Part shown: positions 22,841 to 52,440 of the stretch, piece by piece
Layout of the letters: every line of letters begins with the position of its first letter
Position numbering within the stretch: position 1 is the first letter of the stretch
Notes under the pieces: model-generated
Databases searched by the model: none
What the model was told of the DNA's origin: nothing
The model's input: only the letters and a program-made list of their open reading frames with translations
Position numbers and translations under genes: made by a program
NCBI GenBank assembly: GCA_944324255.1
Contig: CALUVM010000013.1
Span: 1-58,111 of the forward strand
Reading direction: 5' to 3'
From: Candidatus Gastranaerophilales bacterium
GTDB lineage: Bacteria > Cyanobacteriota > Vampirovibrionia > Gastranaerophilales > Gastranaerophilaceae
DNA: 58,111 nucleotides

Positions 22841-24031
22841 CTAGCTGAATATGCCGAACGTTCTTTCGACATTATCATCTCTTACTTGTTTAAGAGAATC
22901 CATTTCTGTTGTTATGGAGCTTCTCTCTGTTTCAAGTTTGCTTAAATCTGTGTCATATTTTGAATCCTTTTGATTAATTTTATCAAGTTCATATTCATAT
23001 TCTGCTTCAGCTCTTTTTAAATCTGTTTCGTCCTGAACTTCCTGCAGATAATTTTCGTTTGTACTGGTTGCAACATTTGTGTCAATCCAGCCGGCGTCTG
23101 CACCGTCGCCTTCAAATACTTGAATAGTAATCAGTCCGGCTTCTACCATGTTTTTGAACCATTCTGTGCCTGATTCTCCGCTCTGATACTGCTTTTCAAT
23201 AGGCTGACAACCGCCTGCATCTTCGATTGCTTCAAACAATCGTACATAATAATTAAATTCTCTTTCAAAATCCTCCCAGCTTTTATCCGGATATTCTAAT
23301 GTTTCACTCTGAGATGTCGCTTCTTCGCCATTTTCTGTCGCTTCGGCTTCGACATCCCTGCTTGCATCTTTATCAATATTCATCTGAGCAAATATTTCTG
23401 AAGCGTATTTTTTATACAATAGATCTCTAAATGATTGTAAAGCTTCACGTTTTGCGTTATCACCTTCTGCGGATTCAATTTTCTCAAAAGCTTCTGTTAA
23501 TTCGGAATCATTAGTGTGAGCATCATATACTTTCTGTTCGCATTCTGTCATATATAAACTATGCCCGCTACCGCCTTCAGAATCATACCCGTAATTATCC
23601 AGAGCTGTACCAATACCAATTTCACTGCCCTGTTTCCACTCATCTCCCCATCCAAAATTCTCTTCAAAACCTATCATTGCATATGCAAAAGAATATTTGT
23701 CATTGTAGGATTGAGCTTTATTATAAACATCTTCCGGTACAATAAGATTCCCGCTCTTTGTATCTCTAAGTGCATACTGTTTAACTCTGCTGTTACTGTA
23801 TTCGCATAATGAATTAAAGTTTGCATCTACATATCTTACAGAAGCATCGTCATTTCTAAAGGCTACCTGAATTTTAGTTGCATCTAAAGCATCACAATAG
23901 TTCTGGTACAACTCATCTTTCTGAGTTGCCAAAGCTATCTTTTGAGACTCTATACTTTGCGCTTTTAGCTCAATATCGTGGAGTCTGCTGGTCAAAGATA
24001 GTAATCTAGCTTGTGACGCCGCCATTCCCAT
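22841..24031 (-). CDS. Unknown protein with paired N- and C-terminal coiled coils; FliA-type promoter
   Basis: A 396-residue protein with no signal peptide. The N-terminus MGMAASQARLLSLTSRLHD opens a helical region of about 55 residues (ELKAQSIESQKIALATQKDEL). The middle (about 60-325) is acidic and mixed, with a few cysteines. The last 65 residues return to a coiled coil (DLKRAEAEYEYELDKI ... LSKLETERSSITTEM) ending ERTFGIFS. Helices at both ends around a variable centre is the layout of flagellar axial proteins, though no flagellin signature is present. A near-consensus sigma-28 promoter lies just upstream and AAGGA precedes the ATG. Function unknown; a flagellum-linked or exported role is my inference. 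Confidence 0.75.
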   Translation of the reverse strand: MGMAASQARLLSLTSRLHDIELKAQSIESQKIALATQKDELYQNYCDALDATKIQVAFRNDDASVRYVDANFNSLCEYSNSRVKQYALRDTKSGNLIVPEDVYNKAQSYNDKYSFAYAMIGFEENFGWGDEWKQGSEIGIGTALDNYGYDSEGGSGHSLYMTECEQKVYDAHTNDSELTEAFEKIESAEGDNAKREALQSFRDLLYKKYASEIFAQMNIDKDASRDVEAEATENGEEATSQSETLEYPDKSWEDFEREFNYYVRLFEAIEDAGGCQPIEKQYQSGESGTEWFKNMVEAGLITIQVFEGDGADAGWIDTNVATSTNENYLQEVQDETDLKRAEAEYEYELDKINQKDSKYDTDLSKLETERSSITTEMDSLKQVRDDNVERTFGIFS

Positions 24032-24066: not shown

Positions 24067-24095
24067 ATTTACGGCATTTTTAACCGAAAACTTTA
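24067..24095 (-). promoter_or_regulatory. Sigma-28 (FliA)-like promoter
   Basis: Minus strand TAAAGTTT, a 12-nt spacer, then GCCGTAAA (consensus TAAAGTTT-N11-GCCGATAA). It would give a leader of about 30 nt to the coiled-coil gene, and it lies downstream of the preceding operon's terminator. Confidence 0.6.
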
Positions 24096-24127
24096 AACTT
24101 TATATCAAAATTGTTACAAATGTTTAC

Positions 24128-24155
24128 AAAAATAAAGCTTCTCATCTTGAGAAGC
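24128..24155 (-). terminator. Rho-independent terminator of the radical SAM operon
   Basis: Minus strand GCTTCTCA-AGA-TGAGAAGC followed by TTTATTTTTG. A transcript starting at the CTTTATATATATGTAAG box 60 bases upstream would also run into it. Confidence 0.8.
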
Positions 24156-41153: not shown

Positions 41154-42203
41154 CTAAATCAAGTTCAATGCAATACTAGGCAGCTGGTTAGCTGTAGACA
41201 ACAGTGTAGCAGAAGCCTGTTGTAAGATTGATGCTTGAATATAGGCAGAAGATTCTTCCGCAACATCCGTATCACGTAATGTTGATAAAGATGAAGTTAA
41301 GTTTTGTGATTGAACATCAAGTGCTGATACTGCTGATTCAACACGGTTTTGAACAGCACCGATTTTTGTTACTCTTGCAGAAATATCATCAATTGCTGTA
41401 TCTAAGAAAGCCAGCATTTCTTTCGGTTCGCAGTCTGCATCTGTTTGTAATACATATGTAGCTTGAGAAGCCGGATCCGCAGGATCATCAGGTGCGGTAT
41501 ATACCAGACCTGCGCAAGCGCAAGCAAATGCTTCAATATTATCAATGTCGCCAAGCTTAGTTACGTCCCCTCCGGCTGCAGTTATAAGTTGAGTAAGAGT
41601 TTTTCCGCTTTCAGCTTTCATTCCTACCATATCGTCTGTACCGAATAAACCGCTTAAGCTTGCGTTTGCAAATAAGTTGACTTTTAAATTAATAATACTG
41701 TTTTCATCAGCATATAAACCTACTTGAAGGTTGATGCCGGCTTCAGTCATACCAACTGCTTCATTATCATCACCGTCAAGGTTAAATGCCATAAGCTTAA
41801 TTCCGTTAAATTCAGCATTAGCAGCAATACGTGATACTTCTTGTAATCTTGCACTGATTTCTGATTGAATAGCTTTTTTAGAAGCTGAACCGTAAGTACC
41901 GTTAGCAGCTTGTTCTGTCAGGTCTCTTACACGCTGAAGGTGGCTTGTAAGGAGCTGATAAGTTTCTTCTGCTGTTGTTAAAAGGTCAATACCGGTAGCA
42001 GCGTTATCAGAAGCTACGTCTAATGAACTGATTTGTGTTTCCCACATGTTTGCAATAGAATAACCTGCTGCGTTATCCTTTGCATTGTTAATTTTAAACC
42101 CTGTTGTTAATCTTTCAAGTGACTGGTTCATAGAGTTTGTTGCACTTGTAAGGCTCCTCTGTGCAATTAATGAGGAAATGTTTGTGTTGATTGTGAGTGC
42201 CAT
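41154..42203 (-). CDS. Flagellin 1
   Basis: 349 residues. The N-terminal D0/D1 helices (ALTINTNISSLIAQRSL, LTTGFKINNAKDNAAGY, LQRVRDLTEQAANGTYG) and the C-terminal helices (IGAVQNRVESAVSALDV, ending LSTANQLPSIALNLI) are typical. The central variable domain is short (about 150-250), unusually acidic and contains cysteines (AFACACAG, DADCEP), which flagellins normally avoid. It would be exported through the flagellar type III apparatus and polymerised into the filament. GAAAGGAG precedes the ATG after a long structured leader with a CsrA-like hairpin. Named hag/fliC elsewhere. Confidence 0.96.
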   Translation of the reverse strand: MALTINTNISSLIAQRSLTSATNSMNQSLERLTTGFKINNAKDNAAGYSIANMWETQISSLDVASDNAATGIDLLTTAEETYQLLTSHLQRVRDLTEQAANGTYGSASKKAIQSEISARLQEVSRIAANAEFNGIKLMAFNLDGDDNEAVGMTEAGINLQVGLYADENSIINLKVNLFANASLSGLFGTDDMVGMKAESGKTLTQLITAAGGDVTKLGDIDNIEAFACACAGLVYTAPDDPADPASQATYVLQTDADCEPKEMLAFLDTAIDDISARVTKIGAVQNRVESAVSALDVQSQNLTSSLSTLRDTDVAEESSAYIQASILQQASATLLSTANQLPSIALNLI

Positions 42204-43221: not shown

Positions 43222-44232
43222 ATGAAAATGCTGTTGTTTGATTTCAGAGAATCTGAAAAAGAGTTCTTTGAAACAAGAGAATTTAAAGATATTGATATAA
43301 CTTTTATAAAAGCTCCTCTTAATGAAGATACAGAACTTACAGAAGAACAATTAAGAGAAACTGATGTTATAAGTGTTTTTATTAATTCAAATTTGACAGC
43401 GGAAGTCCTTGCAAGATTTAGCAACTTAAGAATAATAACAACCCGCTCAACCGGATATAATCATATTGATTTAATGTATTGTACAAGAAATCATATAGCA
43501 GTTTTTAATGTTGACCATTACGGGGAAGCCTCGGTTGCCCAATATACAACAGGTCTTATTATTACACTTGTAAGGAATCTTCTTCCCGCATATCTGGGGA
43601 TGAAAGAAAGTTCTATTAATCAAGTTCTTTACGAAGGTAGAACCCTGCAGAATTTGACAATAGGTATTATAGGCTGCGGGGCGATCGGGAGTGCTGTTGC
43701 AAAAACAGCCAACTTTTTCGGGATGAAAATACTTGTTAATACTTATATGAAAAATCCTGCGGTTAGTGATTTTGTTGAATATGTTGATTTGGAAAAACTA
43801 TTAAGAGAATCCGACATAATTACTCTTCATATCCCATACACTCCGGAAGTTTATCACCTTATTTCCTCTAAAGAATTTGAAAAAATGAAACAAGGAGTTT
43901 ATATAATTAATACGGCACGGGGAGAATTGGTTGATATTGTCGCTCTATATGAAAATCTAATAAGCGGTAAAGTTAAAGGAGCTGCTCTAGATGTGCTTGA
44001 ATGTGAGTATCTTGCTGTTAATAATGATAATCTTGCTGATGAAATACGAGATTCGGACGGTAAATGTATGGCGTCAGCTCTCCTTACTCAAAAACTTCTT
44101 GATATGGATAATGTAATAATTACTCCGCATATAGCATATAATACAAAAGAATCAGTTCACTATCTTTTAGAAGAAACTTTTAATAATATCAAAGATTTTT
44201 CAAAAGGTATGCACACAAATCAGGTATGTTAA
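43222..44232 (+). CDS. D-2-hydroxyacid dehydrogenase (D-lactate dehydrogenase-like)
   Basis: 336 residues. The NAD Rossmann motif GCGAIGS is at 151-157, INTARGELVD contains the catalytic Arg region, ALDVLE the Glu, and ITPHIAYNTKES the catalytic His. YNHIDL near 79-84 is also typical of the D-LDH branch. It reduces a 2-keto acid (pyruvate or an aryl pyruvate) to the D-hydroxy acid with NADH, fitting fermentation. AAAGGAG precedes ATG. Confidence 0.92.
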   Translation: MKMLLFDFRESEKEFFETREFKDIDITFIKAPLNEDTELTEEQLRETDVISVFINSNLTAEVLARFSNLRIITTRSTGYNHIDLMYCTRNHIAVFNVDHYGEASVAQYTTGLIITLVRNLLPAYLGMKESSINQVLYEGRTLQNLTIGIIGCGAIGSAVAKTANFFGMKILVNTYMKNPAVSDFVEYVDLEKLLRESDIITLHIPYTPEVYHLISSKEFEKMKQGVYIINTARGELVDIVALYENLISGKVKGAALDVLECEYLAVNNDNLADEIRDSDGKCMASALLTQKLLDMDNVIITPHIAYNTKESVHYLLEETFNNIKDFSKGMHTNQVC

Positions 44233-44259
44233 GTTTTGTAACAATTCTCCTTAAAACCC

Positions 44260-44286
44260 TAAAGTTTTAAGAAAAAATGCCGATAT
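44260..44286 (+). promoter_or_regulatory. Sigma-28 (FliA) promoter
   Basis: TAAAGTTT, an 11-nt spacer, then GCCGATAT: 15 of 16 bases match the flagellar sigma consensus TAAAGTTT-N11-GCCGATAA at the correct spacing. It would give a leader of about 30 nt to the next gene. Confidence 0.85.
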
Positions 44287-44323
44287 ATATATTACGAAAA
44301 GGGATTAAAAAAGGTATCGGAAA

Positions 44324-44722
44324 ATGGGAATCAATATCACACATACTATGGATTTATTCCAATTTGAGAACAAAGAAAATCTGAGAAACACCGCTAGAAA
44401 TATTCTAAATAAACAAGGTGCCTCAGAAGAAACTGCTCAAAAAATGGTTGAAAAAACAATCTTTGATTCTGATAAGCAAATCAAAGAAGTTTATTCTAAT
44501 CCGCAGCTTGCTGTTATAAAAGCTTCTTCTCAGATTTCTATGAATAATACCTTGAAAGAAACTTTAAAATATTTAAAAAGCCACGCTAATCAGAAGATTA
44601 CAAAAGAACCGGTGCTGGGAGAACTTTGGGAAAAATTAAATAGTACAAAAGAAGACTCTTATAAAGGAGAGCTTCTGGATTTTCAAATTGATGACTCGGC
44701 TGTCAATATCTTTGCTGCCTAA
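44324..44722 (+). CDS. Unknown small helical protein under FliA control
   Basis: 132 residues, no signal peptide, no cysteine. It is predominantly helical (NLRNTARNILNKQGASEETA, QMVEK-type segments) with a C-terminal hydrophobic-acidic end (FQIDDSAVNIFAA). I see no known flagellar protein signature (not FlgM, FliS, FliT or FliD). The canonical sigma-28 promoter just upstream marks it as a late flagellar gene. It could be an export chaperone, an anti-sigma factor or a minor filament part. It ends 4 bp inside the convergent YhcH gene. Confidence 0.75.
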   Translation: MGINITHTMDLFQFENKENLRNTARNILNKQGASEETAQKMVEKTIFDSDKQIKEVYSNPQLAVIKASSQISMNNTLKETLKYLKSHANQKITKEPVLGELWEKLNSTKEDSYKGELLDFQIDDSAVNIFAA

Positions 44723-45332: not shown

Positions 45333-45845
45333 ATGTTAATGTCATTCTGGATGGTCCAGAGATTAACACGCGAAATAAATGCTCTCGAAAAGCAGGCGAT
45401 GATGAAACAGATAGAACTGACTCACCATCAAAAATATGCCAGCGTTTTGGGAGGGTCTTCCATAATGACTCTCGGTAATATCGCCGGATTGTCAGCAGAC
45501 CTTCTGCCGAGAGCAGCTTTATTTGCACAGTACTCAGATCAGGTAAGTTCAATGAGTGCTATGCAGAACCTGCAAGCAATGAAGTTTATGGGAAGAGTTC
45601 CATACACGGGTAATCCGATGATGCAGTATCAGATGGAGATGAGTGCCTTCCGCAGTTTCAAAGAACAGTCGATGAAGGCTCTAAAACAACAGGAAGCTCA
45701 AATTATGAATGAAAAAGAAAAGGAAATACAACTTGAACTTAATGATATAGAACAAAGGTTGAATATAAAACGTAATCAACTTAATTCAATGAAAGAACTC
45801 GCAAGCAAAGAGGCGCAGGACAGCGCACCTAGGTTCGGGTTATAA
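45333..45845 (+). CDS. Unknown Met/Gln-rich coiled-coil protein
   Basis: 170 residues, no signal peptide. An N-terminal helix (WMVQRLTREINALEKQAMM) is followed by a less polar middle rich in Met, Ala and Ser (GGSSIMTLGNIAGLSAD; PYTGNPMMQYQM). A C-terminal coiled coil (about 115-155) contains LNDIEQRLNIKRNQLNSMKE. That segment resembles, residue class by residue class, the C-terminal LSKLETERSSITTEMDSLKQ of the FliA-driven protein at 22.8-24.0 kb. A G-rich TAGGTAGG precedes the ATG and a terminator follows. Function unknown. Confidence 0.72.
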   Translation: MLMSFWMVQRLTREINALEKQAMMKQIELTHHQKYASVLGGSSIMTLGNIAGLSADLLPRAALFAQYSDQVSSMSAMQNLQAMKFMGRVPYTGNPMMQYQMEMSAFRSFKEQSMKALKQQEAQIMNEKEKEIQLELNDIEQRLNIKRNQLNSMKELASKEAQDSAPRFGL

Positions 45846-49533: not shown

Positions 49534-49685
49534 ATGTACCCTTTCCCTCTTATTATCGTCTGAAATAATTGCCATACAAAAATATTAGCATAAATCGCCG
49601 GGATTATAAAATATTTTCATTTTGATAACTTATGTAAAGTTTTGTAACAAATAAAACAAAGCGTGAAATTGAAGAAATTATATAT

Positions 49686-49703
49686 ACTTAATATATATAT
49701 AAG
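49686..49703 (+). promoter_or_regulatory. Variant of the shared upstream box (ACTTAATATATATATAAG)
   Basis: CTTA-N9-TAAG keeps the 17-bp length and dyad ends of the CTTTATATATATGTAAG box. It is 25 bases before the ATG of the glycine-rich gene. TAAAGTTTTGTAACAAATA lies about 50 bases further upstream. Confidence 0.5.
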
Positions 49704-49728
49704 ATGTAAATAAGATGAGGTAAAAATT

Positions 49729-50901
49729 ATGTCAGTAGGCAGATGTCATTCAGCTTTCGTACATTATGAAATGTTCCACGGTCATGGCGCATGTCATGGC
49801 GGCGGGAATAACTACGGAAGTATATTTAACATAAACTATAACTGCAACGGCAGACATGGCGGATTCTGGTCAGGCCTTGGCGCAGGACTTGGATACGGTA
49901 TTGGCGGCTGGTTAATGGGCGGTTTGAATATGCTGGGTGGATTGTTTGGCTTTGGCGGCATGGGCTTCGGCGGCGGCTTGCAAATGCCTTGGCTTAACTG
50001 GGGCGGCGGAAGTACCGGCAGATACGACGATTACAGCTCCAGACGTCATGATGCAACTTCCCGTTCTACTGAAAAAGTAGTAGAAAAACCTCAAGATGAC
50101 AGCGAATATGCTGATATTAATAAGGTTCAGGACGAAGTTACTAAATTATTAGAAAAAGATAGCATTACTCAAGAAGAATATAATACTATTAAAGGCAAAA
50201 TTGATAAATTAACCCATTCTAATGGTAACAATGATGCTAATAATGAAGATCAAATAGAAACACTAAAAGGAATGTTACCATCTTTAGAAAAGAAAATTAA
50301 ACAGGCTGCTGACGAGGACGCTGATGCTGATAGTGATTCTGACGGTATTATCGGAGGTACTCTCGGTTCAGAAGACCCGGGTGAGGTAAAAGACGGTACA
50401 GATCCTGCCGGACCAATAAACTATGATGGTATTACAGGGTTAACCGATGATGATAAAAAGACTTTGAATGAACTCGGTGTCAGAGTTATAAAAATCCAGG
50501 GTAAAAACGGCGAAATTAACGCTTTAAGCTTACCAAAAGCAATGTCACTTGATAATTTGAATAAATTAAAAGCTATCGCTGATAAGCATAACATCCCTGT
50601 AGCGGTCGCAAATAATAAAACTGCAACCCTTGACAAATGGATAGCCGGTAAAATAGATGATATAAAACTGGAAAACAACAAATTATCCTATACAGTTAAT
50701 TGTGATAACTATGGTGAACTTGAATACAAATATACAGTAACCCAAAAAGATGCAAACAGCAATGATTATAAAATAGACTTACACTCAGATAGCAATGATG
50801 AAGCTAAACGGGATGGTTATTCCAACAGAGCACAAGATTATGAATTTAAAGAAGAATTGCTAAGAAGAAATGGCAGCACAGTAATGTCAAAATGGTACTA
50901 A
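49729..50901 (+). CDS. Unknown modular protein: Gly/His-rich head, acidic linker, C-terminal beta domain
   Basis: 390 residues, no Sec signal. Residues 1-40 are rich in His, Cys, Gly and Asn (FHGHGACHGGGNNYG). Residues 41-90 are a glycine-rich hydrophobic stretch (GFWSGLGAGLGYGIGGWLMG). Residues about 115-200 are helical, then an Asp/Ser-rich linker (ADEDADADSDSDG) resembles calcium-binding or flexible surface linkers. The C-terminal 170 residues contain a small alpha/beta unit (DKKTLNELGVRVIKIQG) and beta strands. An exported surface protein is a reasonable guess; function unknown. GATGAGG precedes ATG and a terminator follows. Confidence 0.72.
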   Translation: MSVGRCHSAFVHYEMFHGHGACHGGGNNYGSIFNINYNCNGRHGGFWSGLGAGLGYGIGGWLMGGLNMLGGLFGFGGMGFGGGLQMPWLNWGGGSTGRYDDYSSRRHDATSRSTEKVVEKPQDDSEYADINKVQDEVTKLLEKDSITQEEYNTIKGKIDKLTHSNGNNDANNEDQIETLKGMLPSLEKKIKQAADEDADADSDSDGIIGGTLGSEDPGEVKDGTDPAGPINYDGITGLTDDDKKTLNELGVRVIKIQGKNGEINALSLPKAMSLDNLNKLKAIADKHNIPVAVANNKTATLDKWIAGKIDDIKLENNKLSYTVNCDNYGELEYKYTVTQKDANSNDYKIDLHSDSNDEAKRDGYSNRAQDYEFKEELLRRNGSTVMSKWY

Positions 50902-51141: not shown

Positions 51142-51313
51142 ACTCCTTGGATTTATAGTTTAGCATTAAGATAAATTTGGTGCAACGTATGGGAAATATA
51201 AATCATCATCAAGATTTTGAGTTGTGAATAGAGTATTAATAATTTAAATTTATACTTAAGTTATAGAAAGTTCTAACTTATTGAGAATTTAATTATAAAG
51301 AAAAATGCTTTAG

Positions 51314-51450
51314 TATATTATTGTGAAGGTATAAAAGCCCCAACTCACAATTAGCAAAGCTGCCTGCGGATATAATTCGCAGGGCGTAGTTGGGTTGAAA
51401 ATTTAATAATTAAATATCAAGGATGAAACAAAATAAAAGGAGATTGAATT
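51314..51450 (+). promoter_or_regulatory. Structured leader of flagellin 2
   Basis: CCCAACT...AGTTGGG (7 bp) encloses CCTGCG...CGCAGG (6 bp) with AGCAAAGCTG on the left and GCGT on the right of the internal loop (51338-51394). CAAGGATG at 51418-51425 matches the CsrA core found in the flagellin 1 leader. TATATT at 51314 may be the -10. Upstream, 51142-51313 shows no gene. Confidence 0.55.
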
Positions 51451-52440
51451 ATGACTTCATCAATTACGATTAACACGAACCTTGCCTCATTGACGGCACA
51501 ACGAAACTTATCGCAGGCAACTGCGGGTATGAACACTGCAATGGAAAGATTATCAACAGGCTTCAGAATTAACTCCGGAGCTGACGATGCGGCAGGTTCT
51601 GCGGTATCCACTTTAATGGAAGCTCAAATATCCGGTTATGATGTAGCTGAATCAAATGCCCAAATGGGACTATCACTTCTGGATACAGAAGAAGGTGTTC
51701 TGGATATTGTAGGTAGTTACTTGCAGCGTATAAGAGATTTGACAGAACAAGCAGCTAACGGTACTTACGGTACCTCTTCGATGCAAGCAATTAGAGCGGA
51801 AGTTGAACAAAGAATGATGGAAATTAATCGTCTTTGCAGAGTTATAGATTATAACGGAATTCAACTGTTAGATGGTACGAGTAACGCTGCTCTTAGCGGA
51901 GAAGGTGTTAACCTCCAAGTAAGTAATAATGCAGGATTACCTAATATTATTAACTTGAATGCATCTCTATTTGAATCTGCTATGTGTACAGCTATCTTAG
52001 TCCCTGGCGGAACAGCTAATGATGCATGGTATACAAGAGATAATGCTGAAGAAACCACGGATCATCTGGCAGAAAGAGTAGCTGAACTTGATGCTGCAGA
52101 TTATGAAGACGGTACATTGTCTTGTATTACTGCAATTTGTGACGCTGTTTATACAACAGATTCAACAGCACGTGAATTTTTATACTTTATTGACGATGCA
52201 ATTGAAAACATTTCAGATAGAAGAACTTTAATCGGTGCTTATATGAACCGTGTAGAATCAGCTGTTGATGCAATAAGTGTACAAAAGGAGAATATCGTAT
52301 CAGCAAACTCATCAATTAAAGATGCGGATGTAGCTACAGAAGCTTCAAACTATATTAAATATCAGATTTTACAGCAGTCCTCTGCAACACTGCTATCAAC
52401 GGCGAACCAAACACCTAGTATAGCACTAAACTTGATTTAG
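51451..52440 (+). CDS. Flagellin 2
   Basis: 329 residues. D0/D1 N-terminus (ITINTNLASLTAQRNLSQA, MERLSTGFRINSGADDAAG, YLQRIRDLTEQAANGTYG) and C-terminus (IGAYMNRVESAVDAISV, ending STANQTPSIALNLI) are closely related to flagellin 1. The variable centre is short and again has cysteines (RLCRVI, AMCTAI, SCITAICDA). Two flagellins about 10 kb apart in opposite orientation suggest composite filaments or alternative expression. AAAGGAG precedes ATG after the structured leader; a terminator follows. Confidence 0.96.
   Translation: MTSSITINTNLASLTAQRNLSQATAGMNTAMERLSTGFRINSGADDAAGSAVSTLMEAQISGYDVAESNAQMGLSLLDTEEGVLDIVGSYLQRIRDLTEQAANGTYGTSSMQAIRAEVEQRMMEINRLCRVIDYNGIQLLDGTSNAALSGEGVNLQVSNNAGLPNIINLNASLFESAMCTAILVPGGTANDAWYTRDNAEETTDHLAERVAELDAADYEDGTLSCITAICDAVYTTDSTAREFLYFIDDAIENISDRRTLIGAYMNRVESAVDAISVQKENIVSANSSIKDADVATEASNYIKYQILQQSSATLLSTANQTPSIALNLI

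Follow-up and report, generated by a model that had tools for sequence, protein, structure and literature searches.

The window analyzed here is a stretch of 58,111 nucleotides (contig CALUVM010000013.1, positions 1 to 58,111, of assembly GCA_944324255.1) from a Candidatus Gastranaerophilales bacterium, a gut-dwelling, non-photosynthetic relative of the cyanobacteria. On its forward strand, an ORF at 44324-44722 encodes a protein of 132 amino acids, hereinafter P0001, which homologue alignments and an AlphaFold2 model mark out as a mostly helical member of an uncharacterised, order-wide family. Upstream of it lies a predicted sigma-28 (FliA) core promoter at 44260-44286 (+), comprising the -35 element TAAAGTTT at 44260-44267 and the -10 element GCCGATAT at 44279-44286, separated by a spacer of 11 bases. 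This is followed by AAAGG at 44310-44314 (+), a probable ribosome-binding site, as an A/G-rich stretch also precedes the ATG in homologues. Farther upstream, at 44225-44242 (+), motif searches recover an HLR1-like direct repeat of the form WWTGTAAM-NN-WWTGTAAM with one mismatch, which is conserved in phase at homologues and is proposed below to be an activator site. The neighbours of P0001 are retained within the genus, with a convergent DUF386 gene present in 33 of 42 loci and a gene for a 170-aa protein in 29 of the 42. The latter gene (45333-45845, +), downstream of both P0001 and the DUF386 gene, encodes a protein of no known family and has no sigma-28 box.

Sigma-28 reads a TAAAGTTT-N11-GCCGATAA-type consensus for the late (class III) flagellar genes. 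The box ahead of P0001, TAAAGTTTtaagaaaaaatGCCGATAT (44260-44286, +), agrees with this consensus at 15 of 16 bases and is separated by 37 bases from the ATG at 44324, which bears out the earlier note on this DNA as to match, spacing and distance. When up to three mismatches are allowed, a search of the window returns three matches against 1.57 expected, i.e., chance level, and the only one-mismatch match among them is that at 44260-44286. The same tolerance applied to the organism's own genome (G000; 1.89 Mb in 43 contigs) gives 99 matches as against 73 for the reversed pattern. This excess is modest; therefore, only the near-perfect boxes are informative by themselves. There are 13 such boxes with at most one mismatch in G000 (three perfect and ten with one mismatch), as compared with an expectation per genome of 0.13 from base composition or 0.17 from a third-order Markov simulation, and most have an ORF starting a short distance behind them. 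The earlier note had taken the lack of a sigma-28 gene as evidence that would count against its reading; G000 encodes FliA, with a score of 228.8 bits to TIGR02479 that exceeds the curated cut-off of 189.6, and FliA is found above this cut-off in 184 of 191 genomes of the same family.

The upstream regions of homologues were compared as well. A box with at most three mismatches (spacer 10-13) is present in 59 of 70 such regions, 50 of these having no more than two, whereas among 1197 windows taken as controls at the same loci only ten contain one (nine with three mismatches and one with none). A separate set of 42 P0001 homologues, retrieved from named genomes, shows the box in nearly every case. 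Within the genus, the spacer nearly always measures 11 bases; a spacer of 12 is seen in many other genera. Like the box, the start codon of P0001 is conserved among homologues; since the sequence from the box to the start codon has diverged, the box itself is under selection. Overall, 44260-44286 is almost certainly a genuine sigma-28 promoter.

The second element of this region has a similarly rigid placement. In the 60 bases upstream of 19 credible sigma-28 boxes of G000, a TGTWA-N5-TGTWA direct repeat is found at a fixed place; 13 of the 19 boxes, and most of the homologues, carry the repeat in phase, whereas the remaining six boxes do not. The downstream half-site, TGTAA, starts exactly at -23 from the -35 element at 12 of the 19 boxes, against a background of 0.0022 per position (p ~7e-28), and does so at 32 of 39 loci of the P0001 family, with most of the distant loci showing a shifted or a TGTTA form. 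The second half-site lies 10 bases farther upstream. On the opposite strand this repeat reads KTTACAWW-N2-KTTACAWW, the HLR1 sequence of the cyanobacterial response regulator RpaB, and at P0001 17 bases separate it from the sigma-28 box. Within the window there are four HLR1-like boxes with at most one mismatch against 0.53 expected, a number reached in 0 of 100 shuffles; two of these are perfect, and neither of the perfect ones is that of P0001. In the reverse approach, 8 of 20 HLR1-like matches in G000 were accompanied by a sigma-28-like box (up to four mismatches) at an offset of 14-15. Together, these observations give good support to a composite promoter architecture in which the repeat and the sigma-28 box would act at a fixed spacing.

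The identity of the regulator is suggested by the resemblance of the repeat to a known operator. HLR1 has been described as an 18-bp direct repeat, KTTACAWW-N2-KTTACAWW, from which RpaB activates when it is placed at about -66 to -45 (PMC13421787), and its consensus is also given in PMC11633204. If the transcription start is placed about 7 bases past the -10 box, the repeat at 44225-44242 would span approximately -68 to -51. G000 encodes an RpaB orthologue recognized by the NF045944 equivalog model (355 bits, cut-off 330), along with two further OmpR-type regulators that are distant RpaB paralogues, scoring 208 and 205 bits against the same model. These paralogues leave some room for a different view, namely that a regulator other than RpaB binds the repeat, or that the repeat serves the promoter as a structural element, and the degeneracy of some TGTWA half-sites in other genera could be seen in the same light. 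However, the repeat agrees with the published HLR1 consensus in its sequence, 10-base period and position. Moreover, the HLR1-like motif also occurs ahead of genes with a different promoter class and therefore behaves as expected of a regulator site. This alternative thus appears to be the less likely one, and the upstream repeat probably functions as a site for RpaB or for one of its close paralogues, with RpaB itself being the most likely binding protein and, by its position, most likely an activator. The available portion of the literature that names RpaB in this bacterial group reports its presence alone, and among the papers searched none connects sigma-28 to the Melainabacteria or FliA to the Gastranaerophilales.

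The composite architecture is not confined to P0001. On the reverse strand of the window, a perfect HLR1-like box (24113-24130, -) and a sigma-28-like box, TAAAGTTT-N12-GCCGTAAA with two mismatches (derived coordinates 24068-24095, -), are arranged as at P0001, with 17 bases between them and 36 bases from the latter to the start of a gene (22841-24031, -). This second composite-promoter gene of the window has a promoter spacer of 12 and encodes a 396-aa protein (MGMAASQARLLSL...; N-terminus MGMAASQARLL...) of no known family and with no NCBIfam match. In the genome at large, the genes behind the best sigma-28 boxes of G000 encode small proteins of 137, 154, 113 and 57 aa, a 331-aa protein with the N-terminus MGLACSQIRLL, and several large products of at least 473 aa, which are cut by the end of the locus. 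One of the products has an EF-hand-like sequence, and there is also an HD-domain protein. This regulon list derives from spacer-11 pattern searches and is incomplete for spacer 12. Larger proteins of no known family are found behind the sigma-28 boxes of loci L002, L007, L013, L016, L017, L021 and L024, most of which carry the HLR1-like repeat in phase. By eye, these large proteins have no evident N-terminal signal peptide, and it is possible that they are type III substrates.

A further perfect HLR1-like box in the window (49631-49648, +), upstream of a gene for a 390-aa protein of no known family (49729-50901), is not accompanied by a sigma-28 box. Here, at 49631-49729 (+), and at L119, L129, L130 and L133, we discern a second promoter-like class behind HLR1-like boxes, roughly TGAAATT ... 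CTTTATATATATGTAAG, on genes of no known family. The delineation of this class is our own reading; the presence of HLR1-like boxes before it suggests that a second sigma factor might operate under the same regulator.

Turning to the protein, the P0001 family is characterized by an N-terminal MGxNxS motif, a core containing SLKETLKYL (helical core QITLNNSLKETLKYLK) and a C-terminal NIFAA. The clade containing P0001 shows full-length homology to a clade of 165-175-aa proteins from other genera (hhalign probability 98.8%, E 6.7e-17). When P0001 and the alignments A1 and A3 were scanned against Pfam and NCBIfam, the matches were scattered and at chance level (e.g., Yuri_gagarin), with none to flagellins or other axial proteins, and PDB sequence searches with profiles recovered nothing credible. 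The AlphaFold2 model, built from 43 sequences, is helical but of too low a quality to decide on a role (pLDDT 60.8, pTM 0.21) and has no match at E <= 0.001 among PDB folds; nor can an export signal be read from the sequence. Thus, the view that the product resembles none of the recognizable class III proteins holds after Pfam, NCBIfam and PDB comparisons. In the course of these searches, one candidate homologue (L050) was dropped as, by eye, an ATP-synthase b-type frame, and three others (L111, L116 and L118, from genera g34 and g40) were set aside as partial paralogues of the P0001 core (QHLALKNNVKETLKFLNTQAAK) without a sigma-28 box.

A first search by sequence detected P0001 homologues in 15 of 191 genomes of the same family, and a profile search did so in 125 of the 191. 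A 47-member profile, applied to 382 genomes across the class, identified the P0001 family in 275, mostly as one copy. By a hand count, these 275 comprise all but 11 of the genomes of the same family and all 10 sampled from four other families of the order, as against 0 of 96 genomes from other orders of the class. P0001 therefore represents an order-wide, near-universal and mostly single-copy family of the Gastranaerophilales, although 4 of 34 genomes of the same genus have no detectable homologue.

This distribution bears directly on the proposal of the earlier note that P0001 is a new late flagellar factor, such as a filament part. Canonical FliF, by its curated cut-off, occurs in 153 of the 382 class genomes, the same family accounting for about 108 of these and other orders for about 35 (hand count). 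In about 168 genomes of the same family there is at most a divergent FliF-like match, and about 164 of these genomes possess a P0001 family member; these genomes are mostly draft assemblies, and the lack of canonical FliF is judged by the cut-off of a single model. Conversely, the approximately 35 FliF-bearing genomes of other orders are devoid of P0001. Further, in genera without canonical FliF, 27 of the 33 homologues examined retain a sigma-28 box with at most three mismatches, so that the other finding named by the earlier note as refuting its reading, homologues without the promoter in non-flagellated relatives, is not borne out. P0001 is hence distributed independently of canonical FliF and is not tied to flagella: in most of the genera without canonical FliF, both the protein and its promoter persist. 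The sigma-28 promoter and the proximity of two flagellin genes, about 2.1 kb and 6.7 kb away, would fit a true late flagellar structural component, i.e., a filament, cap or junction protein. However, neither flagellin gene (41154-42203, -; 51451-52440, +) has a recognisable sigma-28 box, the best candidate in the 300 bases upstream having six mismatches, and the classical late gene is therefore no obvious member of the regulon. Given this, the distribution and the dissimilarity to axial proteins noted above, a structural role in the flagellum is highly improbable. Accordingly, the promoter call of the earlier note stands, while its label of late flagellar factor is too narrow. The leader of the second flagellin gene (51310-51455, +) contains a CCTGCG/CGCAGG hairpin within a CCCAACT/AGTTGGG inverted repeat; its folding energy is not significant (z -1.18) and it has no Rfam match, the Rfam search of the whole window having returned tRNAs only.

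A different possibility arises from the apparent lack of an anti-sigma-28 factor: although FliA is nearly universal in the order, none of the Gastranaerophilales genomes covered matches the Pfam FlgM model (PF04316), as against 12 of the 96 from other orders. With its complementary distribution, P0001 formally qualifies as a possible substitute for the anti-sigma factor, which would be made under sigma-28, bind FliA and be exported to release it. Like FlgM, P0001 is small, mostly single-copy and sigma-28-driven and co-occurs with FliA within the order, including in lineages without canonical FliF, and its low model confidence would fit a FlgM-like partial disorder. Unlike FlgM, it is order-specific and without sequence or profile similarity to that family: FlgM was rejected as a relative with an hhalign probability below 1%, and PF04316 is not among the families shown for the 47 members, so that the comparison proposed in the earlier note gave no support for kinship. 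Moreover, the model detects FlgM in so few genomes outside the order that its absence means little, the other small sigma-28-driven genes (those for the 137-, 154-, 113- and 57-aa proteins) are equally eligible, and the four same-genus genomes without P0001 do possess FliF. An anti-sigma role for P0001 is accordingly unlikely. A role for P0001 as a cytosolic chaperone serving type III substrates, akin to that of FliS, FliT or FlgN, is marginally less likely still. It would accord with a small, helical protein co-regulated with many larger ones that could be export substrates. Nevertheless, neither the Pfam/NCBIfam scans nor the Pfam scan of the 47 members showed FliS (which the earlier note had suggested comparing along with FliT), FliT or FlgN among the families displayed, and the strong conservation of both extreme termini would rather be expected of a protein that is exported or docked.

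What the order retains of the flagellar machinery offers an alternative context for P0001. In G000, canonical FliF is encoded beside flagellar-type genes (contig C6), including fliG, fliH and fliI as identified by eye, and a separate FliE/FliF-like pair is also present. This second pair, at L202:9490-11548 (contig C10), matches the Pfam models FliE and YscJ_FliF and falls below the fliF equivalog cut-off; most genera of the same family have the divergent FliF alone. One genome without canonical FliF, G073, encodes rod-type proteins (so identified by eye) near FliA. Incomplete flagellar gene sets have been reported in the order (PMC4040986, PMC3787301), in agreement with G073 and with the distribution of FliF.

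These strands could be drawn together in a single mechanism. RNA polymerase with sigma-28 would read TAAAGTTT-N11-GCCGATAT to express P0001, while the TGTTA-N5-TGTAA repeat would be bound by a response regulator of the OmpR type, in all likelihood the orthologue of RpaB, which would activate from the place upstream where activators usually act. This arrangement is also found on a regulon of mostly uncharacterised proteins, several of them large. P0001 would then be an exported substrate or a cytosolic partner of a type III export apparatus derived from the flagellum; the order keeps parts of this apparatus even where canonical FliF has been lost. We lean slightly toward this explanation as a whole, i.e., the composite promoter together with P0001 as an export substrate or partner; the role of P0001 as such is the likeliest of those considered but is put forward tentatively.

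Sigma-28 promoters are usually thought to work without an activator; hence, a conserved activator box at such promoters would be unusual. In comparison to the class III promoters of enterobacteria and others, those described here share the near-perfect TAAAGTTT-N11-GCCGATAA sequence and an accompanying FliA gene, but differ in having a fixed upstream activator-type repeat and mostly uncharacterised targets, in leaving the flagellins of the window uncovered, in the common occurrence of N12 in other genera and in their retention without canonical FliF. Similarly, the direct repeat, its 10-base period, its distance from the predicted start and the RpaB gene recall the RpaB/HLR1 system of cyanobacterial photosynthesis genes (PMC13421787), whereas here the candidate sites are on sigma-28 promoters of a non-photosynthetic lineage, with the box on the opposite strand relative to the published consensus. 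The FliE/FliF-like pair, the rod-type proteins and FliA without canonical FliF likewise recall flagellum-derived type III secretion without motility, with uncharacterised proteins as the presumed cargo here.

We raise, as a still doubtful proposition, that in the Gastranaerophilales RpaB co-activates the sigma-28 regulon as an AND-gate for order-specific proteins of an export apparatus that outlived the flagellum. The fixed HLR1-sigma-28 architecture offers a concrete, testable answer, and points to a set of co-regulated, unannotated proteins in gut bacteria that have FliA and a partial flagellar apparatus but lack canonical FliF. Such bacteria would be the place to seek a flagellum turned secretion machine. 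If this proposition is true, RpaB would have an ancient role outside photosynthesis, that of controlling a programme of secretion or of the cell surface.
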